Assembly: GCF_033063295.1 (NCBI RefSeq)
Contig: NZ_JAWJZH010000001.1
Location: 2,232,001-2,296,000, forward strand
DNA: 64,000 nt
Origin: Nitrosomonas sp. Is35
Lineage (GTDB): Bacteria; Pseudomonadota; Gammaproteobacteria; Burkholderiales; Nitrosomonadaceae
Direction: 5' to 3'
This document shows positions 27,399 to 64,000 of the stretch, one piece after another. Position 1 is the stretch's first letter. Every line of letters starts with the position of its first letter. The position numbers were made by a program, and so were the translations under genes. The notes under the pieces were generated by a model that saw only the letters and a list, made by a program, of their open reading frames with translations, ran no database searches and was not told the DNA's origin.

Positions 27399-27405
27399 AA
27401 CTTCC

Positions 27406-27945: not shown

Positions 27946-27961
27946 ATAATTACAATTCCTT

Positions 27962-28279: not shown

Positions 28280-28298
28280 ATCTATTCTCTTCTCGATA

Positions 28299-28667: not shown

Positions 28668-28697
28668 TTAATATTCTCTTTTTAAAAACTCATATTG

Positions 28698-28734: not shown

Positions 28735-28771
28735 TATTTTAATAAGTATCCCGACGAATCAAAAAGGCGGC

Positions 28772-28777
28772 ATTATA
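28772..28777 (-). promoter_or_regulatory. Proposed spc operon promoter (-10 box)
   Basis: The minus strand reads TATAATGCCGCC here, a full -10 match followed by a GC-rich stretch, between rpsQ and rplN. The -35 at 17 bases is weak (TATCAA). In Escherichia coli the spc promoter sits in this same gap, which makes the placement credible. The start of transcription would be near 28765. Confidence 0.5.
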
Positions 28778-28843
28778 CAAGAAAACACTCTTTTTTGATA
28801 TAATTTATAGAAAATCACGCACTTCAAGTAGCAAAGAAACTAT

Positions 28844-29107
28844 TTATCTCTCGGATACATTATTAACGTGTTTTACTACTTTCCAATTCTTGGTTTTTGA
28901 TAATGGACGACATTCTTCTATTAAAACAATATCACCTATAGATAAATGTTCATTCTCAACATGAGCATGATATTTTTTTGATCTAATTACAAATTTTCCA
29001 TAAAGTGGGTGTTTTATTCTGCGTTCAACCAATACTGTTACTGTTTTATCCATTTTATTACTTGTGATACGACCAGTCAGTGTACGTTTCAATTTTTCGC
29101 TATTCAT
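28844..29107 (-). CDS. rpsQ: 30S ribosomal protein S17
   Basis: S17 is a primary 16S rRNA-binding protein. The 87-aa OB-fold protein shows [20 protein letters not shown] near the N-terminus and the [17 protein letters not shown] signature near 60-76. It is the last gene of the S10 operon before the spc promoter gap. Confidence 0.97.
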
Positions 29108-29109
29108 AA

Positions 29110-29298
29110 TTAACTTGCTTTCTGAGTCATAATTGTTTTAACTCTTGCGATATCTTTTCTAACCATCTTCATTCGACTTGTGTCTGAAAGTTGTTGTGTA
29201 GCTAATTGCATTCTTAAGCTAAATTGCACTCTTAATAAGGAAATGAGTTCTTTATTGAGTTCAGATAATGATTTTTCTTTCAATTCACTAACTTTCAT
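29110..29298 (-). CDS. rpmC: 50S ribosomal protein L29
   Basis: L29 is a two-helix protein at the tunnel exit, where signal recognition particle and trigger factor dock. The 62-aa protein starts [19 protein letters not shown]. It has two bases on each side between it and its neighbours rplP and rpsQ. Confidence 0.95.
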
Positions 29299-29300
29299 TG

Positions 29301-29717
29301 TTATCCGCCAAATTGCCTAATAGTAAATACTGTTTTAATTGGTAATTTTGCTGCAGCTAGTCTAAACGCTTCTTTAGCTAGTTCTTCACTAACTCCATCC
29401 ATTTCATAAAGAACCTTCCCAGGCTGAATTTCAGCAACATAATACTCTGGACTTCCTTTACCATTTCCCATCCGTACTTCAGCTGGTTTATGTGAAATTG
29501 GTTTATCAGGAAAAATCCGTATCCAGATACGGCCACCCCTTTTGATATGTCTTGTCATAGCTCTTCGAGCAGCTTCTATTTGACGTGCTGTTAATCGGCC
29601 TCTATCAACTGCTTTTAGACCAAATTCACCAAAGCTAACTTTTGAGCCTCGTGTTGCGATGCCGGTATTTCTTCCTTTTTGCTGCTTTCTATATTTAGTA
29701 CGCGCTGGTTGAAGCAT
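29301..29717 (-). CDS. rplP: 50S ribosomal protein L16
   Basis: L16 organises the A-site region of the 50S subunit. The 138-aa protein starts [19 protein letters not shown] and contains [20 protein letters not shown] and [18 protein letters not shown], both family signatures. Confidence 0.97.
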
Positions 29718-29783
29718 TTCTTTCCCCAGAATTTATTTTTATCAGATATCAAAGAATCTAGTAATTGTAAATAAATGTTTAAA

Positions 29784-30539
29784 TCATTCAATGCTTTTAT
29801 CTATTTTAGAATCGGATTCTTTAATAAACGATGGAGAGGATTTTTTACTAATTTTCTTTTTCTCACTATCAGAAACAGTACCTAAGACATTTAAGCTATT
29901 TGCGTCACTTTTTCCAAGTATCTCGCCTTTAAAAACCCACACTTTAATGCCAATAATGCCATAAGTAGTTTTAGCTTCTGAAGTTGCATAGTCGAGATCT
30001 GCTCTTAAAGTATGAAGAGGAACTCGGCCTTCTCTATACCATTCCGTTCGGGCAATTTCTATCCCGTTCAATCTACCCGAACTCATTATTTTTATACCTT
30101 GAGCTCCCAATCTCATAGCATTCTGCATTGCCCGTTTCATTGCTCTACGAAACATAATTCTTTTTTCTAATTGTTGAGCGATATTATCGGCAATTAGTTG
30201 CGCATCCAGTTCTGGTTTTCTTATTTCTTCGATATTAACATGGACGGGAACCCCCATTCTTTTTTGGAGCTCAGTGCGCAATACCTCTATATCTTCTCCC
30301 TTTTTGCCAATGACCACACCTGGACGAGAACTGTAAATAGTAATCCTTGCATTTTTTGATGGTCTTTCTATCAAAACTCTACCAACCGAGGCATTTTTAA
30401 GCTTTTCATTAAGAAAAGTCCGTACTTTTATATCCTCATTCAGCATAGTTGCAAAGTTATTGCTATTTGCATACCACTTTGACAACCAATTTCTTTGAAC
30501 TGAAAGACGAAACCCGATTGGATGTATTTTTTGACCCAT
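29784..30539 (-). CDS. rpsC: 30S ribosomal protein S3
   Basis: S3 lines the mRNA entry channel and has helicase activity. The KH domain carries [15 protein letters not shown] near residues 75-89, and the C-domain carries [20 protein letters not shown] near 158-177. At 251 residues it is longer than most S3 proteins because of a lysine- and serine-rich tail after about residue 208. Confidence 0.97.
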
Positions 30540-30559
30540 ATCAATTAGTGCCTTTGATT

Positions 30560-30907
30560 TTATTTAATTTGACTACCATTATCGCTTACTGTTAACGAGA
30601 TATGACATGTAGGCTTAACAATTCTGTTGCCACGACCTTTAGCACGTGCACTTGTTCGTTTCATCAGTACTCCTCTATCAATATATATAGATGAGACTTT
30701 CAATTCATCAATGTCAGCGCCATCATTATGTTCTGCATTTGCAATGGCTGATTCCAAGATTTTTCGAATTATTTCTGCGCCTTTTTTAGGGCTGAAAGTC
30801 AAAATATTCAGTGCTTTATCAACTGTCAGACCTCTTATTTGATCTGCCACAAGACGTCCTTTTTGTGCTGATAACCTAACCCCGCGCAATTTAGCAGTAG
30901 TTTCCAT
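30560..30907 (-). CDS. rplV: 50S ribosomal protein L22
   Basis: L22 extends a hairpin into the exit tunnel, where macrolide resistance changes are known. The 115-aa protein starts [20 protein letters not shown] and contains the tunnel hairpin [18 protein letters not shown] near residues 84-101. Confidence 0.96.
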
Positions 30908-30915
30908 ATTAATTC

Positions 30916-31197
30916 CTATCGCTTAGTAACTGCTTTTTTATCGCCAGCATGGCCTTTAAAAGTACGTGTAAGTGAAAATTCACCAAATTTATGACCAATC
31001 ATATTTTCTGTCACAAAAACAGGAATATGTTGCTTACCATTGTGTACGGCCACTGTTATCCCTATAAAATCGGGCAATATGGTGGACCGTCTTGACCATG
31101 TTTTAACAGGTCTCTTATCATTTGTTTCACGCGCTTTCACTATCTTTTCCATTAGATGCGTATCTACAAATGGTCCCTTTTTAACTGATCGTGCCAT
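30916..31197 (-). CDS. rpsS: 30S ribosomal protein S19
   Basis: S19 forms a complex with S13 in the 30S head. The 93-aa protein starts [19 protein letters not shown] and contains the signature [20 protein letters not shown] near residues 67-86. Confidence 0.97.
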
Positions 31198-31205
31198 TTA
31201 ATCTA

Positions 31206-32039
31206 TTATCCTTTTTTTGAATAACGATGACGAACTATCATCACTTCTGTTCTTTTATTTTTTCGAGTTCTATAACCCTTAGCTGGTGTTCCCCATGGAC
31301 TGACTGGATGCCTTCCTGCGGATGTCCTTCCTTCTCCACCACCATGTGGGTGATCTATAGGATTCATTGCCACACCTCGTACAGTTGGTCTAATTCCACG
31401 CCACCGAACTGCACCTGCTTTACCAATAGATCTTAAGTTGTGTTCAGCATTACCTACTTCACCGATTGTGGCACGACAATCAATATGCACTTTCCGCATC
31501 TCTCCTGAGCGAAGTTTCAGTTGTGCATAATTTCCTTCTCGTGCTTGTAATTGTATCGAAGCACCAGCCGATCGTGCTAATTGGGCGCCTTTTCCTGGCA
31601 ATAATTCAACACAATGAATTATCGTCCCCATCGGTATATTGCGTAAAGGTAGCGCATCTCCAGGTTTTATTTGAGCATTTTTACCACTAGAAATTTTTGT
31701 GCCTACTGCTAATCCTTTTGGAGCAATAATGTACCTTCTTTCCCCATCCTGATAGCAAATTAAAGCAATATTTGCTGTCCTATTAGGGTCATACTCAATA
31801 CGTTCGACGATACCAGTTATATCATCTTTATCACGTTTAAAATCTATCAATCTATAGTGTTGTTTATGTCCGCCCCCACGATGCCTTGTAGTGATGCGAC
31901 CATAATGATTACGTCCCGCAGTTTTAGTTTGTTTTTCTATTAAATTTTTATAAGGTTCGCCATTGTACAGATCATTATTTGCTATTTTAACTACTGATCT
32001 TCTTCCAGGTGAAGTCGGTTTTAATTTAACAAGGGCCAT
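31206..32039 (-). CDS. rplB: 50S ribosomal protein L2
   Basis: L2 is a large core protein needed for peptidyl transfer and subunit association. The 277-aa protein shows [19 protein letters not shown] near residue 43 and [19 protein letters not shown] near 220, where the conserved histidine lies. Its ATG overlaps the rplW stop by one base. Confidence 0.98.
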
Positions 32040-32374
32040 TATTTAACCTCTGCATTTGAAAAATTTGCAAAACTCAATTCCTGCCCTGCCTTAATGCTTA
32101 CGATGGCTTTTTTCCAATCACTTCTGCGTCCCATAAAACGTCCAAATCTTTTGCTTTTTCCTTTCACATTTATCGTTTGAACATTCTTCACTTCTATCTT
32201 TTGTTCTTTCCATAATAACTCTATGGCATGTTTTATTTCTTTTTTAGTTGCATCTGTTGCTACACGAAATACCGTTTGATTATTTTTCTCTCCGATAAAT
32301 GTAGCTTTCTCTGAGATATGCGGCGCTAATATGACTTTTAATAAACGTTCTTGATTAATATTTGAATTTTTCAT
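32039..32374 (-). CDS. rplW: 50S ribosomal protein L23
   Basis: L23 is the docking site for trigger factor and SRP at the tunnel exit. The 111-aa protein contains [16 protein letters not shown] and the RNA-binding loop [21 protein letters not shown] written here in part ([17 protein letters not shown]). It overlaps rplD by four bases (ATGA). Confidence 0.96.
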
Positions 32375-32991
32375 GACAGAAGTTCCTCAAGATTCTTCAA
32401 TCCTTCTGTTGTAAGTAAAATCTTTTCAAATTTCAAAAGACTTACCGGATCTACATTCTTCACTTCAACTACAGAAACATGTGGAATATTGCGCGATGAG
32501 AGATACAAATTTTCATCCACATTATTCGTAATCAACATAACCTCACTGAGCCCTAATGCAATTAGTTTTTCTTTAAAAGCTTTAGTTTTATGCGTATCGA
32601 CATTAAAGTTATCTATAATCATTAATCGCTCATCACGTACTAACTGAGACAAAATGATACTTATACCGGTACGATACATTTTTTTATTGAGTTTTTTTCT
32701 AAAATTCTCATCAGGACTATTTGGAAAAATTTTTCCGCCTCCGCGCCATATTGGACTTGATGCCATACCGGCACGAGCGCGCCCTGTTCCTTTTTGCCGC
32801 CATGGCTTACGAGTTGACTTGGCAACATCTGCACGCCCTTTCTGAGCTCGCGTAGCTCCTCGCGCATTTGATAGATAAGAAGTTATAACTTGATGAATAA
32901 GTGCCTCATTGTAATCTTTATTAAAAAGTTCATCAGAAACAGTGATATTTTCTGTTGCCTGATTCTTTTCACCGATAAGCTTCAACTCCAT
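32371..32991 (-). CDS. rplD: 50S ribosomal protein L4
   Basis: L4 reaches into the exit tunnel and in Escherichia coli represses the S10 operon. The 206-aa protein shows the tunnel loop with [20 protein letters not shown] near residues 62-81 and [14 protein letters not shown] just after. It is in normal order between rplC and rplW. Confidence 0.97.
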
Positions 32992-33031
32992 TACCTGTTC
33001 ATCCTATTGTTATTTCGTTTTATTAATCAAT

Positions 33032-33679
33032 CTATTTTCTTACTTTAATGCTCGAACGCACTATGACATTGCCGCCTTTAGATCCTGGTATTGCGCCTTT
33101 TAAAAGCAATAAACTCCTTGCTTCATCAATTCTTAATATCTCTATATTTTGAATAGTTCTTCTTACATTACCCATGTGGCCTGACATTCTTTTACCGGGA
33201 AAAACTCGACCGGGATCTTGCGCCATCCCAATTGATCCTGGTTTATTATGCGCTTTTGAATTACCGTGACTAGCTCGATTTGAAGAAAAGTGATGCAACT
33301 TTATCGTTCCTGCATAGCCTTTGCCAATAGTTGTTCCAGACACATCCACTCTTTGGCCAACTTTGAATATACCACATGTAACTGTAGCGCCATTTTGTAG
33401 CTCATTGATATCTTCATCTGAAGTTACTCTAAACTCTTTTATAGTGCTTCCTGCTTCTACACCTGCTTTTGAGAAGTGCCCTGCAATTGATTTATTGACT
33501 CTATTAGGTCTTTTTTTTCCAAATGTTAATTGCACCGCAGAATAACCATTTGTATCAGACCTTTTTAACTGAGTTATGCGATTATTGGAAACATCAATGA
33601 CAGTTACTGGCAAGCTATCACCATTCTCAGTAAAAATCCGAGTCATTCCAATTTTACGACCAATCAACCCTATTGCCAT
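33032..33679 (-). CDS. rplC: 50S ribosomal protein L3
   Basis: L3 starts 50S assembly and reaches the peptidyl transferase centre. The 215-aa protein starts [20 protein letters not shown] and has [20 protein letters not shown] and [20 protein letters not shown] near 125-170. The glutamine in MAQDPGR is the residue methylated by PrmB in other bacteria. Confidence 0.97.
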
Positions 33680-33748
33680 TTTCCGCCTCGATCTAAGAGC
33701 ACATGTCTTTATTAAGAAGAACTAAATACTCTAACTATTTAAAAAAAC

Positions 33749-34057
33749 TTATAATTTGATTTCCACATCCACACCAGCAGGCAAATCCAATTTCATTAAA
33801 GCATCGACTGTTTTGTCTGTTGGATCAATGATATCCATTAATCTTAAGTGCGTTCTAATCTCGAACTGATCACGAGATGTTTTATTTACATGAGGCGATC
33901 TCAACACATCAAAACGTTCGATTCTAGTCGGCAATGGAACGGGGCCCTTAACAACAGCTCCAGTTCTTTTTGCTGTTTCTACAATTTCCAGTGCCGATTT
34001 ATCTATCAACCGATAATCGAATGCTTTTAGACGAATTCTAATTTTTTGGTTTTGCAT
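33749..34057 (-). CDS. rpsJ: 30S ribosomal protein S10
   Basis: S10 is part of the 30S head and also works with NusB in antitermination. The 102-aa protein shows the signature [20 protein letters not shown] near residues 35-54 and [15 protein letters not shown] just after. It starts 76 bases after tuf; no terminator or clear promoter was seen in that gap, so read-through from the str operon is likely. Confidence 0.97.
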
Positions 34058-51416: not shown

Positions 51417-52397
51417 TTATTGACTTCCAGATTTTCCCGGCTGCTTACCCGCCGCCCGCAAATCGACAATCTTATTCAGCAACTGAAACCAGAACGGTGC
51501 ACCAAGCGATCCGGCGAAAGTCGTGATCAGGATGCCCATGATTTTGACCAGCCAATCCATGGCTTCAAATTTTTCCGATACCCAAACCCATTTTTTCTCT
51601 TCGCCATCCTTGACCGTCCATCCTATCGGCAAGTGCAGTTCTTCAATTTTTTTAATCAACTCCCCAACATCCTTGGGGGATTCCGCAGTTTTCTTGACTA
51701 CACCATCATCATTCCCGGCGGATATTTCCTCTGCCGATTGCTTTTCCGGTGGTTGCGGCATCAAACTTGCAACATCCGTCGAAGAAGCAGCTTGTACCAA
51801 AGCTTGCCTGAGCGCGATATCGGTCCACAGGGTCTGGGAAATTTTGATGGCGTCGATATTCAAGGCTGTACAGACCATGAGTGAAATACCAAAAATAATG
51901 ACTTGCGTTTTTTGTTTGTACCAGCCGCCCACCCGGTCCATCGCATCGTTGTACCAGCTCTCCACGTTCCTGCGCGCTTTCTCCGCGTCGTCGCCTGCTT
52001 CGTGCAGCAGCAGGATGATCGATTTTCCCGCTTCGGTTTGCGCAAAAAACTTTTGGCTCTCGATCTTTGCAATGAGCGATTGATTGTCCGCCGGAAGCTT
52101 GCCGGTACTGCCGGTCATGATATCCATCAGCGCCAGGGTGAAATTCTTCGGCGGGATATAGGAAGGTTTCTCTCCCGCTTTTGAGAGCCCGCTAATCAGC
52201 GGATGCTGATAGAGATCGGCGACCAATTGATTGGCTTCGCCGGATTGCAGCAAGTTGGTCAGACCGGCTTCAAGATTTTTCGCGCGCATCCGGATGAATT
52301 GCGCAATCATTTCATTGACCGCGGAACACAATAAACTAACCAGAACAAAGAGAAACACCATGCCCATGGCGATATCCAGAATTGAAGAATTCAGCAT
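51417..52397 (-). CDS. Uncharacterised membrane protein
   Basis: The 326-aa protein has an N-terminal membrane helix (about 8-28) and a charged helical domain containing HPLISGLSKAGEKPSYIPP near residue 64. A second helix lies near 163-182, a hydrophilic region rich in D, E and K spans about 205-270, and a third helix is near 283-305. I recall similar N-termini (LDIAMGMVFLFVLVSLLCSA followed by NE) in unnamed bacterial proteins, but know no function. It is transcribed away from the protease operon that starts at 52850 and may share control with it. Confidence 0.75.
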   Translation of the reverse strand: MLNSSILDIAMGMVFLFVLVSLLCSAVNEMIAQFIRMRAKNLEAGLTNLLQSGEANQLVADLYQHPLISGLSKAGEKPSYIPPKNFTLALMDIMTGSTGKLPADNQSLIAKIESQKFFAQTEAGKSIILLLHEAGDDAEKARRNVESWYNDAMDRVGGWYKQKTQVIIFGISLMVCTALNIDAIKISQTLWTDIALRQALVQAASSTDVASLMPQPPEKQSAEEISAGNDDGVVKKTAESPKDVGELIKKIEELHLPIGWTVKDGEEKKWVWVSEKFEAMDWLVKIMGILITTFAGSLGAPFWFQLLNKIVDLRAAGKQPGKSGSQ

Positions 52398-52849
52398 TTT
52401 TCCTCCGGCTAATGATAGTCGTTACACGTCGTCGATCAGTTTAGCGCACGAAAACGGAAACGGGGTGCTTTGTTTGACAGCTTTCCGGGTTTTCAGTATA
52501 TTCTGGACTGAAGCGGGGTTATTATTTTTCTATTCCAACAGAAAAATGAAATACGAACAAAGGGTTAATGTTTCATCCATAAAAACTAATAACACGCATA
52601 CCCACCTAAAAAAACCCTACACCGGAACACGTATCCGATCGGCAAACCGGTTGCTGATTAGCAAGGATTAGTAAGTTCAGTCAAATTAGAAACGTAGTAA
52701 CAAAATTCACCCGTAAGGGCTTCCGTACCAGCATCACTGCATCTGATCGTCTCGAGTCATCTTTGATGATAGGAAGCGATAAGTTGAATAATTAAGCGCA
52801 TCACTGAGTGTATCCCATCAGCTGACGGCTTTATTAATAGGTGGTTACT
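52398..52849. other. Regulatory gap before the protease operon
   Basis: This 452-base stretch between divergent genes carries the promoter at 52474-52502, a stem-loop at about 52524-52547, and a long untranslated leader of about 340 bases before the first protease gene. An ATG at 52546 opens 41 codons to 52671, but its ribosome site is poor and nothing supports it as a gene. No terminator was seen. Confidence 0.5.
52474..52502 (+). promoter_or_regulatory. Near-consensus sigma-70 promoter of the protease/giant-protein operon
   Basis: TTGACA (52474-52479), 17 bases, then TATATT (52497-52502): a full -35 match and a five-of-six -10 match at ideal spacing. Transcription would start near 52510 and run into the gene at 52850 after a leader of about 340 bases. 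Confidence 0.75.
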
Positions 52850-53713
52850 ATGACTGCAAATGCCTCGTTCAAATTGACCGGCCACTCCGGCGCTTTGGTT
52901 AAGCATCACCTTGATGCCGCATTACCGCGTGTCGGCGCCGCCATCAGCAATCTGAAAGGCATTTATCAATTCCACCACATCAACGTAGGCTTGGGCACGC
53001 TGGGTTTCCTGGCCGCCAAACGTAACGCTCCGGATGGGGAATCGCTGGTGCTGGTATCCAACCGGCATGTTCTGTTCGCCAACGATGCGGAACACGACGA
53101 AATTATTTTTCAACCTGATTACGAAGAACACGATGACCATGTCATTTTCGACGCGCCACGCTTAAATGCCATTGCCAAAATCGACGGCGAAGGACTGTGC
53201 GGGCATTTCTCCTTTGCCTATCCGGGAGAACCGGAAAAACCCTATTACATCGATTGCGCAACAGCCAGCCTGCTGCTGAAGCAATGCAAAAATCCGCAGC
53301 AGACGCAAGGAAGAATCCGGCACTTCGCAAAAATCGCCCGGGTGCATCCGCTGGACACGCTGAGAGGACGAGAACTGAAAGTCCGCTTGTTAGGCCGCCC
53401 TGATTCAACGTGGGGAAAAATCATTGACAGCGCAGCCACGGTTGAGACTGTCCATGGCGAACTGTGCCGCAACACGCTGATCATCGAAGCACTACCCGAT
53501 CGCCACGGCATTAGACAACCGTTCTCACGTAAAGGCGATTCCGGCGCTTTGCTCGTCGACCAATACCAGCGCGCGGTAGGGTTGCTCTGGGGCCATCACA
53601 TGCGCGATCCCTATATCTCCTACGCGTGCCACATTCATCCGGTGCTCAGTTGTTTGCAGATTACGCCCTGGTACTTCGATTTTTGCGCGCCCCGGTCTAT
53701 CAATAAGGATTAA
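52850..53713 (+). CDS. Trypsin-like serine protease, no signal peptide
   Basis: The 287-aa protein shows a chymotrypsin-fold triad: histidine 73 in SNRHVLF, aspartate 135 in YYIDCATA and serine 231 in RKGDSGALL. Strands typical of the fold lie between them. There is no signal peptide or membrane segment, so it probably acts inside the cell, which is unusual for this family. The ATG at 52850 has AGGTGG six bases upstream; a GTG three codons earlier is possible. It is the first gene of an operon with a second such protease and giant proteins of unknown function. Confidence 0.85.
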   Translation: MTANASFKLTGHSGALVKHHLDAALPRVGAAISNLKGIYQFHHINVGLGTLGFLAAKRNAPDGESLVLVSNRHVLFANDAEHDEIIFQPDYEEHDDHVIFDAPRLNAIAKIDGEGLCGHFSFAYPGEPEKPYYIDCATASLLLKQCKNPQQTQGRIRHFAKIARVHPLDTLRGRELKVRLLGRPDSTWGKIIDSAATVETVHGELCRNTLIIEALPDRHGIRQPFSRKGDSGALLVDQYQRAVGLLWGHHMRDPYISYACHIHPVLSCLQITPWYFDFCAPRSINKD

Positions 53714-53717
53714 CGCT

Positions 53718-53774
53718 ATGCCACAGAAAAAACGCATTGTATTCGCATACTGCTGGCCGACTGGATGGAGGTAA
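53718..53774 (+). CDS. Possible 18-codon micro-ORF between the two proteases
   Basis: ATG at 53718 opens MPQKKRIVFAYCWPTGWR and ends with TAA at 53772-53774, five bases before the next gene. AAGGA lies upstream at usable spacing. Its last codons contain the GGAGG site of the next gene, so it may only serve to couple translation. There is no family to compare with. Confidence 0.3.
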   Translation: MPQKKRIVFAYCWPTGWR

Positions 53775-53778
53775 CGTA

Positions 53779-55335
53779 ATGGATCAAAAAGAATTGGCTA
53801 TATTACATGCGGAAGCCGAAGCTGAGCTGAAAAAAATCCCGGGCGTGGTTGGCGTTGGCTACGGCTTGAAAGAAGTCGGCGGCAAAACCACCAATCAAAT
53901 TTCCTTCCGCGTGTACGTCAAAGAAAAACGCAAACCGAAAGACCTGAATCCAGCCGACATCATCCCGAAAGAATATAAGGGCATTCCCACCGATGTGGTG
54001 CTTGTCATTCAATCCAAACCAATACATTGCGAAGACTTGGATCAACATTCACCGCTGATTGGCGGAATATCGATTACCAATTTCAAAACGAATGCCTCGA
54101 ATCAAATTGGCTCCGGAACATTGGGATGTTTTGCCACGTTAAATGGTGTCAGCGGACCGGAAAACGTGGTGCTGCTGTCGAACAATCACGTACTTGCAAG
54201 TAATGGCGCAGTCAATGGCGATACGATTTATCAACCGCGCTATATCGATAACGCAGGTACTATCACTCTTGACGGCACACAAGAACGGCGTAATCCGATC
54301 GGAAAAATTCACAATGTGGGTCAACAAGCCCCCTATTCTTATACCTACCCCAGTGAAACAGCCCAAGACTATTACTTGGATTGCGCCATTGCAAAACTGG
54401 ATATCTGTATTTCCAGCTGGTGCAATACCAATTGCGGCGTATCGTACAAGAACGAAATTCGCGGACTGAATATCGGCGGCAACAGCAAATTGGAAGATGT
54501 TGCCCGCGTTGCACAAAGTGATCTGGGCGGTAGCGATTATGTCGTGTATAAAGTTGGGCGTAGAACCAGCAAAACCACCGGCAAAGTCATCGACACCACC
54601 GCACTGGATGCTGGTGGCGGGCGCATGATCTACATCGAAGCGACGCAACCCGATTGCAATGGCGACTTGATATTCGCCGATCATGGCGACTCCGGCTCCG
54701 CTGTTGTCAACGCGCAAAACAAAGTGGTCGGGTTATTGTATGCAGTGGATTCGGCCAATCCTGCTCGAGCGCTTGCATCGCACATTCACCCGGTCATGGC
54801 CTACCTCAGCATCACCCCCATCACAACCGCCAACCCGCCGGTCGGCCCCGCGGGGCAAACATTAAACGATGTTGAAGGCATTTTCACTGGCATCAACCAC
54901 ACCACCGAGGTGCGCGAGCGTTTTCTGAACACGCGCAAAGGCGCTGAGATTTATCAGCAGATTCTCGATCACCGTCAGGAAGTGATTGCCCTCGTCAATC
55001 ACCGGCGACCGGTCACCGTGGCTTGGCATCGCAGCAAAGGCCCGGCGTTTCTAGCGCACTTTGTCAACAATGCGCGCGACCCGGCGCATGTCATTCCGTT
55101 TGAAGTGGAAGGCATCACGCGCGATCAGATGATCCGGCGTATGGCCGAGGTGCTGACGCAGCATGGCAGCGCTGCGTTGCAGCAAGTGATTCAGCGTTAC
55201 GTTGAAGAAGTGATGGGATTCATCAACAGTTTCGATAATCTGCACGAGTTCGTTAAGCAGTTTGAAGACGCATCCGGCTCCAGCGAATTCAGTGGACACG
55301 CCGCACTCATGGAGGAAACCACCGATGTCAAATGA
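53779..55335 (+). CDS. Trypsin-like serine protease with N-terminal extra domain
   Basis: This 518-aa protein begins with a small domain (about 1-80, with GVVGVGYGLKEVGG and RVYVKEKRKP) that resembles the N-terminal piece seen in some bacterial trypsin-like proteins. The protease domain follows: histidine 137 in LSNNHVLA, aspartate 201 in YYLDCAIAKL, serine 305 in DHGDSGSAVV. The last 150 residues are helical and have no recognised fold. GGAGGT precedes the ATG at 53779. There is no signal peptide. Its end overlaps the next gene by 11 bases, so it is tied to the giant protein that follows. Confidence 0.85.
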   Translation: MDQKELAILHAEAEAELKKIPGVVGVGYGLKEVGGKTTNQISFRVYVKEKRKPKDLNPADIIPKEYKGIPTDVVLVIQSKPIHCEDLDQHSPLIGGISITNFKTNASNQIGSGTLGCFATLNGVSGPENVVLLSNNHVLASNGAVNGDTIYQPRYIDNAGTITLDGTQERRNPIGKIHNVGQQAPYSYTYPSETAQDYYLDCAIAKLDICISSWCNTNCGVSYKNEIRGLNIGGNSKLEDVARVAQSDLGGSDYVVYKVGRRTSKTTGKVIDTTALDAGGGRMIYIEATQPDCNGDLIFADHGDSGSAVVNAQNKVVGLLYAVDSANPARALASHIHPVMAYLSITPITTANPPVGPAGQTLNDVEGIFTGINHTTEVRERFLNTRKGAEIYQQILDHRQEVIALVNHRRPVTVAWHRSKGPAFLAHFVNNARDPAHVIPFEVEGITRDQMIRRMAEVLTQHGSAALQQVIQRYVEEVMGFINSFDNLHEFVKQFEDASGSSEFSGHAALMEETTDVK

Positions 55336-58300
55336 AGTGGATACCTTACAGCGCGTTTTGCTGCAAATCTCCAACGTATTGGAGCCGCTGGAACGCGAGC
55401 TAAATAGCACGCGCGCGGTGCAAACGTTTGCCGAACTCGGCATTACGCTCAACAGCGGCCAGGTTTCGTCACTGGCTTCTCCGATGCAAGCGCTGATCGC
55501 CAGCAGCAAAACCGTGCTGCAAAAAGCCGGGGATTTGGTGGAAGCCATCGAAGCGGAAAATATCGAGCAAATTGTCACCATCAGCATAGAGCTGATCAGC
55601 CAAGTCATCACCGCCATCCAAAAAATCGATCAACTGCAAACCGCCGTGCAAGGCATCGGCAGTATCCCAGCGAGCGTTTCCAGTCATTTTGCCGAACGGT
55701 TGTTCAACTACTTGCTCGTCCGTGCGCTGGATACCGCCAACGGCATCAATGAGTTGTTCGAGCTGCTGGGCATACTTGAGCGGCAACGCAATAACGTTGG
55801 TTCCACCGACCCCGGTAATCCCGAGTTTACAATCTCTACCTTCCATTTCAACGAACTAGGCAAGTGGCTGGAATCGCCGGTATCGGCATTACAGTCGCAC
55901 TATAACTGGGGCAGCAACAGTCTCGATGCCGCCAATTTGTTGCAGCGGCTCGAACGCTTGTTGCTTCATCTCAAAGCACCGGCTTTTTTTGACGATACAT
56001 CGCCCACGCCGATTCTCGAAGCTGTCATTTTTCAACTGCGGCCGCGCACCGATCTCAATCCCAACGGATTGAGCCTGTCGATCCGGCAGAATCTCAGTCC
56101 CGGTAAAATCGAATTTGCTGCCGACGATTTAAAAGTCATTCTGGATTTGCAGGCCACGCTGCCGTTCGGCGCCGAGCTTGTGATCCAGCCGCCGGCCACA
56201 TTCACTTTTCATACCTCCGCAGCCGACACGGTTTCCGGTTTGTTGAACCTCAGCGTCACCGCCGACCGCACGCAAGCGGCAACACCGTATCTATTGATTG
56301 GCGACCCCGATGGCAGCCGGTTGGAAGTCGGTAAATTCGGCGTCAGCTTCGGCGGCCGGATTCAAGGCAGCGGCGGCCAATCGGCAGCCGATTTTACCGT
56401 CGGCGGTGAAATCGGCGCCGGTAAACTGGCGATCTCATTTGCCGACGGTGATGGTTTTCTTACCGATATCTTGAGCGGCGTCCAGCTCAATTCGGATTTC
56501 GGCATGGCGTTCGGCTACAACAGCAACGATGGGCTGTTTTTCGTCGGCAGCAGCGCCTTGGAAATCAAATTGCCGCTGCACCTGAATCTTGGGCCGGTGG
56601 AAGTCAGCGCGTTAACCTTTTCGGTCGGTATCGAAAACAACAAATTCCCTACCGCCATTTCAACGGATATCAAAGCTGCGCTCGGCCCGCTCGCCGCTGT
56701 CGTGGAAAACATCGGCTTAGCGATCGATTTCGCCTTGGTCGATAACCGCAGCGGCAATGCCGGGCCGGTCGATATCCAGCTAGGATTCAAGCCGCCGAAT
56801 GGCGTCGGCTTGTCGCTGGATGCCGGTATTGTCAAAGGCGGCGGCTATCTCTACTTCGATTTCGACAAGGAAGAATATGCCGGTGCATTGGAGCTGATGT
56901 TCAGCGGCATCGTCACGGTGAAAGCGATCGGTCTAATTACGACGCGCATGCCCGACGGTTCCGAAGGTTTCTCGTTGCTGATCATTCTCAGCGCCGAATT
57001 CGGCACGCCGTTCCAGCTGGGTTTCGGTTTTACGCTGAACGCCGTCGGCGGGTTGCTCGGCTTGAATCGCACCATGGAACTGGAAGTGATTGCCGCCGGT
57101 GTTCGCACCGGATCGATCAACAGCATCATGTTCCCGGACAATATCATCGAGAATGCGCCGCGCATCATCAGTGATTTGCGCCAATTCTTCCCGCCTGCGC
57201 AGGATGTGTTTCTGATCGGCCCGATGGCCAAATTGGGCTGGGGCACACCGACACTGGTCAGCGCATCGCTTGGCATCATCGTCGAAATACCGCCGGGCAA
57301 TATCGCCATTCTCGGTGTGCTGAAAGTTGCATTGCCCGATGAAGACGCGGCGTTGATCGTCATTCAGGTCAGTTTCATCGGCGCGCTGGAAGTGGATAAA
57401 CAGCGGCTGTGGTTTTATGCCAGCTTATATGATTCCCGGGTTATTTTTCTCACCATCGACGGCGATATGGGTCTGCTGATCGCTTGGGGTAACGATGCCA
57501 ATTTTGTCATCAGTGTAGGTGGTTTTCATCCCTCCTTTAAACCACCTCCACTGCCTTTTCCCAATCCCAGCCGGATTGCGATCAACATCCTGAATACTTC
57601 ATTTGCACGGATCCGCGTGGAAGGTTATTTCGCCGTCACTTCCAACACCGTGCAGTTCGGCGCCAAAGCGGAAGTTTATTTCGGTCTCAGCGCCTTCAAT
57701 ATTTCCGGCCATGTCGGCTTCGATGCGTTGTTCCAGTTTTCGCCATTCTATTTCATCATCACCATTTCCGCGTCGTTCGATGTCAAAGTGTTCGGTATCG
57801 GCTTGTTCGGGGTGCATATGCGCGGCGAACTCGAAGGCACATCACCGTGGCACATCGAAGGCGAAGGCTCCATCTCGCTGTTATTCTGGGATATCGACGT
57901 ACCTTTCAGCCACACCTGGGGCGAGGATGAAAACACCACGCTGCCGTCCATCGACATCATGCCGCTCATCACCGCGGAATTCGATAAGCTGGATAACTGG
58001 ACGGCCGAATTACCCGCATCCAGTCAATTGCTGGTATCACTGCGCGCCATTGAAAGCACCAGCGATCTGATTTTGCACCCGGTCGGCGTATTGCGCGTCA
58101 ACCAGCGCGCCGTTCCGCTCGATCTGGATCTCGACAAAGTCGGCAATCAAAAACCGAAAGACGCCAAACGGCTGACCGTCGAAGTGATCGATACCGGCCT
58201 GGCTAAGATCGCGGACACCAAAGAATCGTTTGCCACGGCGCAATATAAAAACTTGAGCGACGCCAACAAACTGAGCGCACCCTCCTACGAAAAACAAAAT

Positions 58301-58723
58301 GCCGGTATCGAACTGTCGGTGAGCAACCAGCAACTCAAATCGCCGGCAGCGGTTAAACGTGTGGTGCGCTACGAGCAAAATATCATCGACAATAACTTTG
58401 TTTCGTTGCTGATCCGTTTTGTCGCCATCGGCGCCGAATTCTTCAATCACTTTTTAGGCCGCAACGCCGCATCGAAATCGGCACTCTCGGCCAGTTACAA
58501 GGCGCAAAAAGCACCGGTCGATCAGAAAATCATCGTGAAAGAAACCGGCTACGTGGTCGCCTCGACCATGAACAACAGTCCGCATAGCAAAGACGCTTAT
58601 TTCGACACGCACGCGCAGGCGCAGGATTTCCTGCGTAAGCAAGTGAATCAGTCGCCCACGTTGCAAGACAATCTGCACGTCATCCCCAGCGCGGAAGCCG
58701 CGCCATTGCAGGAGGCGGCATAA
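55325..58723 (+). CDS. DUF6603-like giant protein
   Basis: The 1132-aa protein has a helical N-terminal region (about 1-180), then a long beta-rich region (about 230-900) of alternating hydrophobic strands. This includes GGYLYFDFDKEEYAGALEL, LITTRMPDGSEGFSLLII and FGFTLNAVGGLLGLNRTMEL, which I recognise as DUF6603-type sequence. The rest is a charged helical tail. There is no signal peptide. The function of the domain is not known. The ATG at 55325 has GGAGGAA upstream and overlaps the protease gene by 11 bases; the next gene starts on its stop codon. Confidence 0.8.
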   Translation: MSNEVDTLQRVLLQISNVLEPLERELNSTRAVQTFAELGITLNSGQVSSLASPMQALIASSKTVLQKAGDLVEAIEAENIEQIVTISIELISQVITAIQKIDQLQTAVQGIGSIPASVSSHFAERLFNYLLVRALDTANGINELFELLGILERQRNNVGSTDPGNPEFTISTFHFNELGKWLESPVSALQSHYNWGSNSLDAANLLQRLERLLLHLKAPAFFDDTSPTPILEAVIFQLRPRTDLNPNGLSLSIRQNLSPGKIEFAADDLKVILDLQATLPFGAELVIQPPATFTFHTSAADTVSGLLNLSVTADRTQAATPYLLIGDPDGSRLEVGKFGVSFGGRIQGSGGQSAADFTVGGEIGAGKLAISFADGDGFLTDILSGVQLNSDFGMAFGYNSNDGLFFVGSSALEIKLPLHLNLGPVEVSALTFSVGIENNKFPTAISTDIKAALGPLAAVVENIGLAIDFALVDNRSGNAGPVDIQLGFKPPNGVGLSLDAGIVKGGGYLYFDFDKEEYAGALELMFSGIVTVKAIGLITTRMPDGSEGFSLLIILSAEFGTPFQLGFGFTLNAVGGLLGLNRTMELEVIAAGVRTGSINSIMFPDNIIENAPRIISDLRQFFPPAQDVFLIGPMAKLGWGTPTLVSASLGIIVEIPPGNIAILGVLKVALPDEDAALIVIQVSFIGALEVDKQRLWFYASLYDSRVIFLTIDGDMGLLIAWGNDANFVISVGGFHPSFKPPPLPFPNPSRIAINILNTSFARIRVEGYFAVTSNTVQFGAKAEVYFGLSAFNISGHVGFDALFQFSPFYFIITISASFDVKVFGIGLFGVHMRGELEGTSPWHIEGEGSISLLFWDIDVPFSHTWGEDENTTLPSIDIMPLITAEFDKLDNWTAELPASSQLLVSLRAIESTSDLILHPVGVLRVNQRAVPLDLDLDKVGNQKPKDAKRLTVEVIDTGLAKIADTKESFATAQYKNLSDANKLSAPSYEKQNAGIELSVSNQQLKSPAAVKRVVRYEQNIIDNNFVSLLIRFVAIGAEFFNHFLGRNAASKSALSASYKAQKAPVDQKIIVKETGYVVASTMNNSPHSKDAYFDTHAQAQDFLRKQVNQSPTLQDNLHVIPSAEAAPLQEAA

Positions 58724-61700
58724 TGGCGATCGGCACGTATACTTTTCTACCGTGGCTACGGCAAGGCGTCGCCAATAATATCCAATCGGCGGATCTGGAT
58801 GCTTCGGTCAAAACACGCGCCAGTGTCGCCGTCAGTCTGAACATCAAAGGCAGCGGCGGCGAAGGCGGCGATGTGGCCGCTCCGGTCAACAAGAACGTTG
58901 CCCTGTACGGCCCCGGCGATATCATCGGTATTGAGTCGAGAGCGATTATCAAAACCGAACCGCTCAACTGGATCACCAACTTTGAACCGAATTATCTGTG
59001 TCATATCGAGTTCTACGACGAAGATTTTCCTTGGCGTTACACCCCGGCGGCACCGGCGGGATCGCGGTTACGGCCATGGGTCACGTTGATCGTATTGACC
59101 GAAGCGGAATTTGCCGAGGGCGGTAATATTTCCGGCAAGCCGCTGCCTTTTATCGATATTAAAGCTGATGCGCTGGGATCGGTATTTCCCAAAGCCGAGG
59201 AACTGTGGGCGTGGGCGCATGTGCACGTCAATAAAAATATTGCCGGTGGTCAAGATGCGCCGCAAGCGCCGGATATCAACAACGCTCTGTCGCAACTGCA
59301 AAGCGTGCTGGCGCAAAACGCCGACGAAGCCTATTCGCGCATCGTCTGCCCGCGCAAACTGACCCCGAACGAGCGCTATCACGCTTTTCTGATCCCCACC
59401 TTTGAAACCGGCCGTTTGGCCGGACTGGGGATGAACCCCGACGATGCAACGCACGCGACATTTTCAGCATGGGGCGAAGGCCGCCCGGCGCCGACGCAGT
59501 TTCCGTTTTATTACCGCTGGTTCTTCCGTACCGGCTCGCAAGGCGATTTCGAATACTTAGTGCGCCTGCTCGAACCGAAACCGGCGGATAGCCGCGTCGG
59601 CCGCCGCGACATGGATGTACAGAACCCCGGCTCCAATATCAGCGGTATCCAGAATCCGGATCTCGAAGGCGTGCTAAAACTCGGCGGCGCACTGCTCGCA
59701 CCGTTGAGCAAGCAAGCCGAGCAGGAAATCGCCAAATGGGAAAATTGGGATCAGCCGTATCCGCATGTGTTCCAGCAGGAATTGGCGGCCTTTCTGAATC
59801 TTGCCGATGACTACGCCCGGCTCGCCGCCGATGCGGCTCACCAGAATACCGATTTGCCCGATGCCATCCAGGCCGATCCCGATCCATTGATTACACCGCC
59901 GATTTACGGCCGCTGGCATGCGCTCAGAAACCGCGTACTGAAAGAAGCCGACGGCAGCGATGCGCCCAATGACCAAAATTGGCTGCACCAGCTCAACCTC
60001 GACCCGCGCTGGCGCAGCGCCGCCGGTTTCGGTACCGACGTCATCATTGCCAACCAGGAAGAATACATGGATGCGGCGTGGGACCAAGTCGGCGATGTGC
60101 TCGAAGCCAACCGCCAAATCCGCCTGGCGCAGCTCGCCAAGATCACCGCCAATAGCTGGTATCAGAAGCAAGTGCTGCCGTTGCAACAAATCAGCCACGA
60201 CAAAGTGCTGTTCATGACAGCCCCGGTGCAAAAACGCGTCATCAGCCAAGGCATCACGGTTTCTCATCGAATCAAGCAAAGCCCGGTCACGCCCGCGCTG
60301 ACCTCCTCACCACTGCGGCGCATGTTGCGCCCGAACGGCCGCTTGCAAAAGCTCTCGACCTTTGACGAGCGCATTCATCCCAACAATTTGATCACGCGCG
60401 TCAACGACGGTATTGTCACCGCCGCGCCGCCGCATGAAGTACCTGCTTCATTGCCCACCTTGGATAATCTATCGCAAGATGCGCAACCGAAGAACGTGCC
60501 GTCCTGGTTGCTGGATTTACTGAAACGCTATCCGTTGATCCCTTACCTCTTGCTAGCGTTGATTTTGCTGCTCGTGATCGTGTTGGCGGTCATCGGCGCC
60601 AGCACCGCAATCTGGGCTGTAGCGGCGGCGCTAAGCGCGGGATTATTGTGGGCTTACCGTACTGCGCAGCGTTTAATCACGCAAATGAATCAAGCCGATT
60701 CGGTATCCGAAACCAGGCAAACACCGGCTGCGGTCGACTCGATGCCACCCAGCAGTAATTTTGTGCTGACGCCGGAACTGAATCCTTTAGCGCTGGATCC
60801 GGCCAATCCGCCGCAACCCGCCAGCGCCGGTGGAGCCGATAGCATTCAATCCAGCCGTTTTAAAACTGCACTGAAAGACTCTTACACAGTGTTGCAAAAC
60901 GGCCTGCAAGCCGGTGTCATACCGGCAACCGTACCGGTCAATATTGCTCAATTGGCAACGGATACGCTGGTCAAACTGAATCCAACAGTTACGATTCCGA
61001 AATGGACACTGGGCAACATCCTGTTACCGCCGCACATCATCGGGTTAATTGGTGAAAAGTTTGTCGAAGCGATGGCGTATCCGGAATTCGATGTTCCGAT
61101 GTACAAACCGCTGACCGATAAATCCACCGAGTTGTTTGTGCCGAACCTGAATTTCATCGAACAAAACACCATCACGTTATTGAAGACCAATCAGCCGTTC
61201 ATCGAGTCGTACATGGTCGGCCTCAATCACGAATTTGCGCGCGAGTTGTTGTGGCGCGAATATCCGACCGATCAACGCGGCTCCTACTTCCGGCAGTTCT
61301 GGGACGTCAGCGGTTTTCTCAGTCCGACCGAGGACAGCAAACAACGTCGCGAAGAATTGAAAGACATTCCGCCGATTCACCGCTGGTCACGGTTCTCCAA
61401 ACTGGGCGAACACGATCATCGCGAACAAGGTTTGGAAAACGAAGAAGAACTGGTATTGGTAATTCGCGGCGAATTGCTGAAAAAATACCCCAATGCGGTG
61501 ATTTACGCGCAAAAAGCCAAATGGCAACCGATCAGCGCTACCAATCCGGCACCGGACAAAAAAACCGAACGGGTATTCGACGATAGCGTACCGATCAAAA
61601 CACCGCTGTACGAAGCGCAGGTCAAACCGGACATTTACTTTTTCGGCTTCGATTTAACCGAGGAAGAAGCGCGCGGCAATCCCGAGGTCGACGACGAACC

Positions 61701-62037
61701 GGGCTGGTTCTTCGTGATCAAGGAACGGCCGGGTGAACCGCGCTTCGGTCTGGATATCGATCGTGAAGGTCCGATTCAGGTTTGGAACGACCTCGCTTGG
61801 ACCGATGTTGCGCCCGGCATCAGTGATGGCGAATTTATCGACATCGCCGCCGCACCCGCGCGCAGCTTGCCAAACACGGCGCCGGGCGGCACCGCGCAAG
61901 AAAAAGCGGAGCAGTGGAAAGAGGATCATTTGTTGAGCTGGACTAACAATATCAATTCGGCGGAACTGGCTTACATTTTATTCCAGGCGCCGGTACTCGT
62001 CGGTGTGCATGCTGCCGAAATGCTGCCGCGCGATTAA
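58723..62037 (+). CDS. Giant protein with a central membrane segment, unknown
   Basis: The 1104-aa protein starts MAIGTYTFLPWLRQGVANNI and has a large soluble N-terminal part (1 to about 600). A strongly hydrophobic stretch near 606-650 (PLIPYLLLALILLLVIVLAV and a second helix) is followed by a second soluble part with GWFFVIKERPGEPRFGLDID near 1000. I do not recognise the family. GGAGG precedes the ATG, which overlaps the previous stop by one base (TAATG). Close coupling with the DUF6603-like gene suggests that the two products work together. Confidence 0.75.
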   Translation: MAIGTYTFLPWLRQGVANNIQSADLDASVKTRASVAVSLNIKGSGGEGGDVAAPVNKNVALYGPGDIIGIESRAIIKTEPLNWITNFEPNYLCHIEFYDEDFPWRYTPAAPAGSRLRPWVTLIVLTEAEFAEGGNISGKPLPFIDIKADALGSVFPKAEELWAWAHVHVNKNIAGGQDAPQAPDINNALSQLQSVLAQNADEAYSRIVCPRKLTPNERYHAFLIPTFETGRLAGLGMNPDDATHATFSAWGEGRPAPTQFPFYYRWFFRTGSQGDFEYLVRLLEPKPADSRVGRRDMDVQNPGSNISGIQNPDLEGVLKLGGALLAPLSKQAEQEIAKWENWDQPYPHVFQQELAAFLNLADDYARLAADAAHQNTDLPDAIQADPDPLITPPIYGRWHALRNRVLKEADGSDAPNDQNWLHQLNLDPRWRSAAGFGTDVIIANQEEYMDAAWDQVGDVLEANRQIRLAQLAKITANSWYQKQVLPLQQISHDKVLFMTAPVQKRVISQGITVSHRIKQSPVTPALTSSPLRRMLRPNGRLQKLSTFDERIHPNNLITRVNDGIVTAAPPHEVPASLPTLDNLSQDAQPKNVPSWLLDLLKRYPLIPYLLLALILLLVIVLAVIGASTAIWAVAAALSAGLLWAYRTAQRLITQMNQADSVSETRQTPAAVDSMPPSSNFVLTPELNPLALDPANPPQPASAGGADSIQSSRFKTALKDSYTVLQNGLQAGVIPATVPVNIAQLATDTLVKLNPTVTIPKWTLGNILLPPHIIGLIGEKFVEAMAYPEFDVPMYKPLTDKSTELFVPNLNFIEQNTITLLKTNQPFIESYMVGLNHEFARELLWREYPTDQRGSYFRQFWDVSGFLSPTEDSKQRREELKDIPPIHRWSRFSKLGEHDHREQGLENEEELVLVIRGELLKKYPNAVIYAQKAKWQPISATNPAPDKKTERVFDDSVPIKTPLYEAQVKPDIYFFGFDLTEEEARGNPEVDDEPGWFFVIKERPGEPRFGLDIDREGPIQVWNDLAWTDVAPGISDGEFIDIAAAPARSLPNTAPGGTAQEKAEQWKEDHLLSWTNNINSAELAYILFQAPVLVGVHAAEMLPRD

Positions 62038-62081
62038 GCATGGTTACATAAGTACAAAATCTCAACCGACAGAAATGGCTT

Positions 62082-64000
62082 ATGACTCAATTTAAAGACA
62101 CGCAAGAACAGATCGATCAAGCACGGCATCAGCACCGGCAAAGCCGGTTAAGTTTGTCTGCCGCCAATGAGAAGCTGCAAAAAACCGAACGCTTGATCGC
62201 AGCATTGCGCCGCCGCTCCGACGGTGCAGCCAAGGAACAATTGCAGACTTTGCTACGCGAGCAAGAAGCGTTGCGAGCTGACACCGGCAAGCTGCAAGCC
62301 GAGCTTGAGCGGAACCGGGAAGTATTGATCGGCCGGGAATCGCTGTTCGAGACTTTCTCAGACCCAACCAAAAACATCGGTCAATTGAACGATATCCATC
62401 CGATTCTGCTGTTACCGCTGCGCATCGAGACACGCTTCAAAAAAGTCACCGGCCCCGGCGGACGCGATGTCAGTGTCGATCAACTATGGGTGCGCGTCTA
62501 CCCGGATGACATCAGCGTCGATACTTTTGAAGAAATTCCATCCGAAGTCGAAATCAGCAACACCCGCGTGTATTGGACCAATATCTGGAAAGCGGGCGGC
62601 ATCGACAGCGAAAAACGTGCGGCGTGGCAAGCGCTGGTCAAGAGCCACGGCGCGGGCCGGGCGTATTGGTTGAGCCAATTATTCAAACCGCTGAATTTGG
62701 CTGAAGAACCGGTCAAAGCCGACGGCGATTATATTTTGGTGATTGTTTCGGAACAGCCGCTGCCCGCCACCGAGAAACCGTTCGTACAGGAATATTGGCA
62801 AGCGGTATTCAACGCCAATAACGATGCCACGGCTTTGGATGCGGCGTATGCCAAACTCAAAAACGATCTCGGCGCAGCGCGCGCGCAGGAAATCGTCACG
62901 TCATACCAGCCACAGAATCTAAACGTCAAACCCGCACCATCGCAAATTATCACTAACGTGCGCGTCGAATTCCTGGAGTTACCCGTCGCCGACGGAGTCG
63001 ATACGCAGCTGCAAGCTTGGACCAATCCGGCACGCGTGGCGCTGTTGCCGGAACGGTTTGTGGTGATGGGTTTCAACGGAAAGGAACAAACGTTACAGCA
63101 TATCGGCCGCCCGGTACCCTCGGAACTGATCGTCGGACCCAATCCCAATGCTCCGGAAGATCAACAGCTACGGCTGGAAGACGACGAGCTGATCGTACCC
63201 GATGAAATGAAATGGGTCACCGACTTTGACGAAGCGGTTGCCAAAGGCATGGGCTTCAAGATTAATCTGAACGATATCCAAGCACGGCGCGGTTTCGACC
63301 GGCTGTTTGTGCTCGGTGTGCGGCTCAGCGCCGATGTCGACAAAAGCCGCGAGCAATTGCAACAGTTGATTCAGCACCATCAACGCAGCCGCAAAGGATT
63401 CAGTTTCCTGATGCAGGGTGCGCCGACCAATAACGTTGAAGATCAGGAAAGCGGTTATACCTGGTTCAGCGACGCCGACGCCAGTTACGATCATTATTTC
63501 AACCAGTACGCCGCCGACGATGATCCTGCCGATTGGCGCACACGGAAAGACGGCCGCTGGCTGGCAAATAGTCTGGGTCTCGACCCGGCGATCCTGAAGT
63601 TATCGCCGCAGTATTACGCCAACGATCAGATGGAAGCCCGGGCAATGAACGAGGCACTGTGGCCGGCAACACTCGGTTATTTCATGGAACAAATGATGGA
63701 GCCGGTGTTCAGCGACGGCACCATCACCAGCACACGCAACTATTTCAACCGTTATGTGCTGGGCCGCGGCACGCTGCCAGCGATCCGCATCGGCAAACAA
63801 CCGTACGGCATCTTGCCAGCCACGCCGTTCTCGCGCATGGCATGGATCAATCGTAAATTATTCAACGACGATCGGTTGGAGCCGCATATCTCCGGCTCAT
63901 TCCTGTTCCTGACCCGGCTCTACAGCCTTATCAAGAAAGCCGACGAGCGCTGGACTTCACTGCTGCCGAAAGTGTCGTACGTCGGCAAACCGCAAACCGA
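62082..64000 (+). CDS. Giant coiled-coil-led protein, partial (runs off the window)
   Basis: From the ATG at 62082 the frame stays open for 639 codons to the window edge. Residues about 1-90 are a heptad-rich coiled coil (QARHQHRQSR, LREQEALRADTGKLQAELER). A soluble region follows with LLLPLRIETRFK near 115, a conserved-looking GFDRLFVLGVRLS near 405, and GKQPYGILPATPFSRMAW near 580. I do not recognise the family. It begins 44 bases after the previous gene, in the same direction, and looks like part of the same operon. An ATG seven bases earlier is in a short dead frame. Confidence 0.75.
   Translation, partial: MTQFKDTQEQIDQARHQHRQSRLSLSAANEKLQKTERLIAALRRRSDGAAKEQLQTLLREQEALRADTGKLQAELERNREVLIGRESLFETFSDPTKNIGQLNDIHPILLLPLRIETRFKKVTGPGGRDVSVDQLWVRVYPDDISVDTFEEIPSEVEISNTRVYWTNIWKAGGIDSEKRAAWQALVKSHGAGRAYWLSQLFKPLNLAEEPVKADGDYILVIVSEQPLPATEKPFVQEYWQAVFNANNDATALDAAYAKLKNDLGAARAQEIVTSYQPQNLNVKPAPSQIITNVRVEFLELPVADGVDTQLQAWTNPARVALLPERFVVMGFNGKEQTLQHIGRPVPSELIVGPNPNAPEDQQLRLEDDELIVPDEMKWVTDFDEAVAKGMGFKINLNDIQARRGFDRLFVLGVRLSADVDKSREQLQQLIQHHQRSRKGFSFLMQGAPTNNVEDQESGYTWFSDADASYDHYFNQYAADDDPADWRTRKDGRWLANSLGLDPAILKLSPQYYANDQMEARAMNEALWPATLGYFMEQMMEPVFSDGTITSTRNYFNRYVLGRGTLPAIRIGKQPYGILPATPFSRMAWINRKLFNDDRLEPHISGSFLFLTRLYSLIKKADERWTSLLPKVSYVGKPQT

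Follow-up and report, generated by a model that had tools for sequence, protein, structure and literature searches.

A conserved four-gene DUF6603 core with an exchangeable enzyme slot in Nitrosomonas and other prokaryotes: a candidate mobile conflict cassette

An operon of six genes, A to F, starts near the right end of a 64,000-nucleotide stretch of the Nitrosomonas sp. Is35 genome (contig NZ_JAWJZH010000001.1, positions 2,232,001 to 2,296,000; G000:C1:2232001-2296000), hereafter called the window. Two protease genes (A and B) precede a gene for a DUF6603 protein (C) and three genes for proteins outside any Pfam family (D, E and F). Comparison of such loci revealed that C-D-E-F recurs as one core across bacterial phyla and in some archaea, that the genes directly before C are exchanged between unrelated enzymes, and that Nitrosomonas genomes either have the unit in full or lack it in full. 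We read the locus, with modest confidence, as a mobile cassette in which the conserved core would hold an exchangeable effector enzyme, probably for biological conflict.

Operon layout and the two proteases

A sequence-only reading of the window had described a near-consensus promoter followed by five plus-strand genes, two of these coupled by overlaps. These features were all recovered, namely the promoter TTGACA-17-TATATT (11 of 12 consensus positions), the open reading frames (ORFs) A to E 3′ of it within the window, and overlaps of 11 bp at B/C and 1 bp at C/D. The five genes are real and incomplete as a set, in that E ends only at 67712 and a sixth gene, F, closes the operon. The promoter was the top-scoring of five sites in 52300-64000; at a looser threshold of 9/12, five sites were seen versus 8.8 expected in shuffled sequences, and therefore only the 11/12 match and its position carry weight. 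The source genome comprises 3.3 Mb in two contigs, and the features of the locus are as follows.

52407 to ~69770 (L002:17771), no strand: cassette missing from empty sites, ~17.36 kb (blastn of L246 and L247 versus both flanks)
52474-52502, plus strand: sigma-70-like promoter, within the cassette
52841 (GTG; ATG at 52850)-53713, plus strand: A, trypsin-like protease domain alone, first slot occupant (ORF, phrog_20754, motifs)
53779 (ATG)-55335, plus strand: B, trypsin-like protease with a C-terminal presumed docking domain, second slot occupant (phrog_20754, motifs)
54895-55278, plus strand: presumed docking domain of B (residues ~387-514 of the ORF from 53737)
55325 (ATG)-58723, plus strand: C, DUF6603 protein, core gene 1 (Pfam)
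56576-58264, plus strand: DUF6603 domain of C (Pfam; amphipathic beta-strand periodicity)
58723-62037, plus strand: D, 1104 amino acids (aa), core gene 2, without Pfam family (ORF, homologue search)
60517-60648, plus strand: hydrophobic segment of D, presumed membrane anchor (residues ~599-642)
62082-67712 (end at L002:15713), plus strand: E, 1876 aa, core gene 3, first 639 aa inside the window (ORF)
67715-69622 (L002:15716-17623), plus strand: F, 635 aa, last operon gene, past the window, 2 bp after E
51417-52397, minus strand: left neighbour, 326 aa, outside the cassette (hydrophobic stretches noted by eye)

Judged by their motifs, A and B are trypsin-like serine proteases, the His, Asp and Ser motifs being intact and in order in both A (SNRHV, IDCAT, GDSGA) and B (SNNHV, LDCAI, GDSGS). 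Both matched phrog_20754 (E 1.5e-11 for A and 2.1e-42 for B); Pfam Trypsin_2 remained below the cut-off for B (19.3 of 27.6), A had no Pfam match, and weak, sub-cut-off NAL1_N similarity was found in B and similar slot enzymes. NAL1-type proteases are the closest known enzymes, but B has an extra C-terminal domain and is itself tied to the core. The protease region of B also weakly matched phrog_1731, a virion structural protein (E 0.016). A signal-peptide-like N-terminus is absent from all of A to F according to a simple hydropathy rule, in agreement with the claim that the proteases carry intact triads and no export signal. Among homologues, the same rule found such an N-terminus in 0/58 D, 0/63 E, 0/70 F, 1/36 C and 0/39 slot proteins, and in none of five re-read slot proteins either.

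C-D-E-F forms a conserved core

To collect loci, two peptide patterns of F were used, a choice that favours conserved members, and 80 of 165 were kept, all from named genomes. Gene order was counted in the 63 of the 80 loci having at least 9.5 kb upstream of F, with the 17 shorter ones left out. D, E and F stood in this order on one strand in 62 of the 63, the exception being the rearranged L022. C was matched on the plus strand in 49 of these loci, before D in 48 and after F in L043; in the 13 of 63 loci where C was unmatched, the stretches ended within 1.5 kb before D, and blastp found a C fragment in six of the 13. The genes are tightly packed (median gaps: -4 bp for C-D and E-F, 14 bp for D-E), and all 37 whole genomes of such loci held DUF6603 over the cut-off. 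C-D-E-F is thereby well supported as one conserved core. The sequence-only reading was right in seeing a system, and the check that it proposed, recurrence in other genomes, came out strongly positive for C, D, E and F; the proteases occupy an exchangeable slot.

Homologue searches at E <= 0.001 yielded 3437 proteins for F and 4027 for D, each among about 8000 scored candidates; the best 120 homologues of F and D were all named 'hypothetical protein' and none had a Pfam domain. D and F thus have thousands of homologues yet no Pfam family. Among the named members the source genome is closest to Nitrosomonas oligotropha, with F 95% identical to L020 and D 96% to P0122. Core members occur in about twelve bacterial phyla: Pseudomonadota, Bacteroidota, Cyanobacteriota, Chloroflexota, Myxococcota, Acidobacteriota, Actinomycetota, Gemmatimonadota, Chlorobiota, Bacillota, Vulcanimicrobiota and Aminicenantes. 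F was borne by 14 of 72,556 plasmid records, five of which were opened. More distant cores were located on plasmids from two haloarchaea, Salinigranum and Halobellus, from Streptomyces longwoodensis and from Rhizobium, where D and E are each in two pieces. The F tree mixes phyla, and the Nitrosomonas members fall into three clades, one with a Methylococcales member and one with a Paenibacillus member (support 83).

A phage or virus origin of the core was considered and rejected: no F relative was present among 32 pattern matches in viral_contigs, and the only F record in the phage collection was MT835531 (L175, MT835531.1), an unannotated human-faecal scaffold labelled 'Bacteriophage sp.' and UNVERIFIED. 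It codes for homologues of E (E-value 2e-126) and F (7e-78); neither C nor D was recognised in the part that was read, and the scaffold is probably bacterial DNA.

Two of the sampled loci depart from this layout. In L022, from a Nitrosomonas metagenome-assembled genome (MAG), DUF6603 is split between two distant places (G028:C1:626470-627663 and 1582347-1582676) and D and E were not seen beside F, which could reflect a real inversion or a misassembly. A Chitinophagaceae MAG (L043:1055-17980) has the order D-E-F-M64-C; the enzyme gene still lies directly before C although C is behind F, which hints that the enzyme and C belong together.

An exchangeable enzyme slot before C

The slot, defined as the gene or genes directly before C, was read in all 37 loci examined. 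Most often it holds proteases (25/37), comprising subtilases in ten loci (eight by Pfam; L144 and L162 by clustering and motifs), trypsin-like enzymes in nine, M64 peptidases in five and an M14 peptidase in one. Single loci have a PLD-like enzyme, a PhoD-like enzyme, or a tyrosinase with a HEAT gene and a SCO1-like gene followed by a 'k1' gene adjoining C. In six slots a k1 protein (about 330 aa) is paired with a protein of no family, either as the next gene or as a fusion, and three slots have proteins of no family only. Five slots in GC-rich loci were read from plus-strand ORFs, with L158, L160 and L161 assigned by Pfam, L153 by blastp and the k1 of L143 by eye only. The haloarchaeal locus L170, which is of this first type (a second type of DUF6603 operon is described below), has a PhoD-like enzyme before C.

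Mapping the enzyme class onto the F tree (71 members, 45 labelled) required 24 changes, compared with a mean of 24.8 for shuffled labels, 77 of 200 of which were as low; the tree is a quick one with 21 of 68 inner branches open, and eight of the 53 known slots are off it, their F ORF being outside the length limits or not picked. With as many changes as under shuffling, the class does not follow the core tree. Exchange is seen between close cores as well, such as L040 and L072, trypsin-like versus subtilase, which share 83% identity in F, 81% in D and 72% in E, and L032 and L037, whose slots also differ (F 75%, D 75%, E 72%). The proteases are therefore exchangeable occupants outside the core.

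A C-terminal domain specific to the locus

A stretch of ~120 residues at the C-terminus of B is found again on trypsin-like slot enzymes and, as a free-standing protein of 128 aa, in L159. Four subtilases also have this domain, as shown by a model from which they had been left out (E 1.9e-12 to 1e-20), making it common to two protease folds; it had no Pfam match over the cut-off and no clear relative in the PDB. Throughout the 37 genomes all 17 hits were in the slot, and these hits, being the source sequences of the model or the same places, are circular for positives and informative for the absence elsewhere. An independent test on 30 of the 43 remaining loci detected the domain 19 times in 14 genomes, each time within one or two genes of C on the upstream side; 12 of these 14 loci had it on trypsin-like and two on subtilase enzymes, and in five tandem pairs it was also present one gene further up. 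Among 398 genomes of the phylum, with at most ten candidates scored per genome, it was found in our source genome only. The domain is specific to this locus, and its distribution suggests a docking domain that would bind the core. A blastp match of the tyrosinase protein to it (E 7e-5) was not confirmed by the hidden Markov model.

Block presence and absence of the cassette

In G059 and G060, two genomes of the same genus without DUF6603, the left neighbour and the right neighbour, a 183-aa FecR-like gene (named by eye) that follows F and precedes a minus-strand gene, adjoin each other at a distance of 142 bp, and C, D, E and F were not found in the stretches read of these two relatives. Homology of the left flank ends at 52406 and restarts at L002:17772 (17779 with L247), i.e. 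window position 69771. With the flanks side by side in two cassette-free relatives, ~17.36 kb including the promoter came or went together as one unit, through either gain or loss. A different gene sits between the two neighbours in G042, a third genome without DUF6603.

Of 149 genomes, 14 encode DUF6603; these include the source genome and all belong to the genus of the window. The left neighbour has no Pfam family; close orthologues (at least 62% identity) exist in 17 of the 149 genomes (own included) and distant ones (mostly 26-41%) in 30 others. It was tried as a cassette member and rejected, with close orthologues present in six DUF6603-free genomes (G019, G042, G049, G053, G059 and G060).

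Anatomy of the giant proteins

C was confirmed as the DUF6603-like giant of the sequence-only reading, being a full-length member of PF20248 (E 1.9e-137, 459.3 bits versus a cut-off of 27, profile positions 1-501 of 502), a family that is a name without a function. Our searches of open-access PubMed Central papers found no mention of 'DUF6603' or 'PF20248', nor a description of a link between DUF6603 and D-E-F plus an enzyme slot. The DUF6603 domain of C has an amphipathic beta periodicity (z 4.1), as might be expected of a beta structure in contact with lipid or a membrane. The giant with a central membrane segment proved to be D, hydrophobic at residues ~599-642 of 1104; such a segment exists in 51 of 58 D proteins (own included) and presumably serves as a membrane anchor. 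By the same hydropathy rule, transmembrane-like hydrophobic windows were present in 36/36 C (own C barely), 23/63 E and 4/70 F.

E plausibly starts with a coiled coil, and its residues 95-1290 were modelled well as mainly helical plus a beta sandwich, with no known fold matched by Foldseek at E <= 0.001 in the PDB or a viral fold library. E and F had no Pfam family at E <= 1, and D had chance-level matches only, on its hydrophobic segment. The giants do fall outside well-known families, as had been anticipated. A fold common to them was not supported: pairwise hhalign comparisons among C, D, E and F all failed to show similarity, and mutual homology was rejected.

A second type of DUF6603 operon

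Thirteen loci (L167-L169 and L185-L194) are of a second type, headed by DUF6603 in longer proteins of about 1.1-3.5 thousand aa; their partner ORFs, often of about 700, 1200-1700 and 500-600 aa, were unmatched by the D, E and F models. Upstream genes were scanned in six of the 13. A class 3 lipase lies directly before DUF6603 in L193, a weak metallo-beta-lactamase match upstream of it in L185, and TPR-S plus patatin two genes before it in L192, past a gap of about 870 bp. Enzymes before second-type DUF6603 genes are a hint and not a rule.

Discussion

We propose that, from one promoter, a self-contained mobile cassette would express the effector enzyme gene or genes together with the C-D-E-F core. 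The core would hold the enzyme, here two trypsin-like proteases; where the occupant is trypsin-like, and for some subtilases, the C-terminal docking domain would serve this purpose. In most members D would attach the core to a membrane, and the core would carry or restrain the enzyme and, once a trigger or target is met, let it act. Such action could be directed at a competitor or an invader, or at the infected cell, so as to kill or disable it. We infer a conflict function from the kinds of enzyme, their exchange and the mobility of the locus, and this role appears likeliest because the occupants are mostly degradative, belong to several unrelated folds and change without a change of the core. 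The enzyme may act inside the producer (defence) or be delivered outside (particle). Delivery is favoured by two features: slot enzymes lack export signals although their families are usually secreted, and distant versions have annotated surface-type domains. The hydrolase occupants speak for defence or delivery alike.

Several observations weigh against this proposal. The docking domain is absent from A, every metallopeptidase and non-protease occupant and 6/10 subtilases, and therefore another way of recruitment must exist. In nine of 37 loci the slot proteins could not be placed in a known family, and tyrosinase and PhoD-like phosphatase would be unusual conflict effectors. The scanned upstream genes of the second-type loci L186, L187 and L194 include no enzyme. 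F was found in our source genome only among the 398 of the phylum, the core being rare there, and on one of the five opened plasmids, from Streptomyces anthocyanicus, F occurs alone without C, D and E (L171:15983-17788, NZ_CP109276.1). The predicted models cover E and F, of which that of F is poor and matches no known fold. Neither the left neighbour nor any of the six operon genes matched a PADLOC family, bar a weak Cas10h match. The latter (residues 410-472 of B, inside its C-terminal domain, E 5.7e-4) was judged spurious. The lone F of L171 has IS5 transposases 4-6 kb upstream and may be either a remnant or a case of F being used independently.

An exported delivery particle is possible at a rather low probability: C-D-E-F would be a large toxin-like assembly released without signal peptides and acting in the manner of a Tc-type or other injection system, the D segment would enter the target membrane and the docked enzyme would be the payload. 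Toxin complexes (Tc) likewise combine giant proteins lacking signal peptides with a variable enzyme, and E has a weak immunoglobulin-like overlap with TcdA1; here, however, the enzyme is a separate upstream gene. The Pfam searches of D, E and F returned no Tc (TcA, TcB or TcC), phage-tail or secretion family, those of A-F with Pfam and PHROG no sheath, tube, baseplate or tail gene of a contractile injection system or phage tail, and Foldseek gave no PDB or viral match for E at E <= 0.001; no lysis or export gene was recognised among A-F. Only tentatively do we suggest an undescribed class of enzyme-delivery machine in bacteria and archaea, in which a four-giant carrier unrelated to known injection and toxin systems would deliver the slot enzyme as payload, with D entering the membrane.

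To an intracellular abortive-type defence, in which the core would sense an invader and free the enzyme inside its own cell, we likewise assign a low probability. The patchy distribution with presence or absence as one block, the hydrolase occupants and the TPR-S plus patatin of L192 are consistent with it. Cyclic oligonucleotide-based antiphage signalling systems (CBASS) and nucleoside triphosphate (NTP)-dependent conflict systems are modular anti-invader systems that similarly pair a constant core with a swappable effector; but no NTPase family was found in A-F, no cyclase or known sensor domain was recognised, PADLOC had no match, and the core proteins here reach 1876 aa.

A scaffolded, cellulosome-like enzyme complex for digestion or metabolism, outside any conflict, would accommodate the mostly degradative enzymes, including tyrosinase, PhoD-like phosphatase and carboxypeptidase, and a shared domain that recalls dockerin. 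This is improbable given one slot per locus, docking hits confined to the locus in the 37 and 30 genomes rather than spread genome-wide, and the missing export signals.

The sequence-only reading had suggested a large assembly whose giant proteins are matured by its own proteases. That proteases are the commonest occupants would fit, but the slot holds two serine folds, metallopeptidases or non-proteases, exchanged between closely related cores, and the core can therefore hardly depend on one cleavage; we consider this very unlikely. Its other alternatives, a membrane-attached machine and a conflict system, appear to fit better. Chance neighbourhood of unrelated genes, at which F alone on one plasmid might hint, is practically negligible with order and coupling kept across phyla.

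If the proposed cassette carries or triggers swappable enzymes, it would represent a new modular principle in microbial biology. It is also open to direct test, as its parts (core, slot and presumed docking domain) are now defined, along with empty sites that occur naturally in the same genus.

Elsewhere in the window, positions 18001-34000 comprise 16 kb at 32-39% GC with negative GC skew in an otherwise mostly 47-56% GC window, and look foreign.

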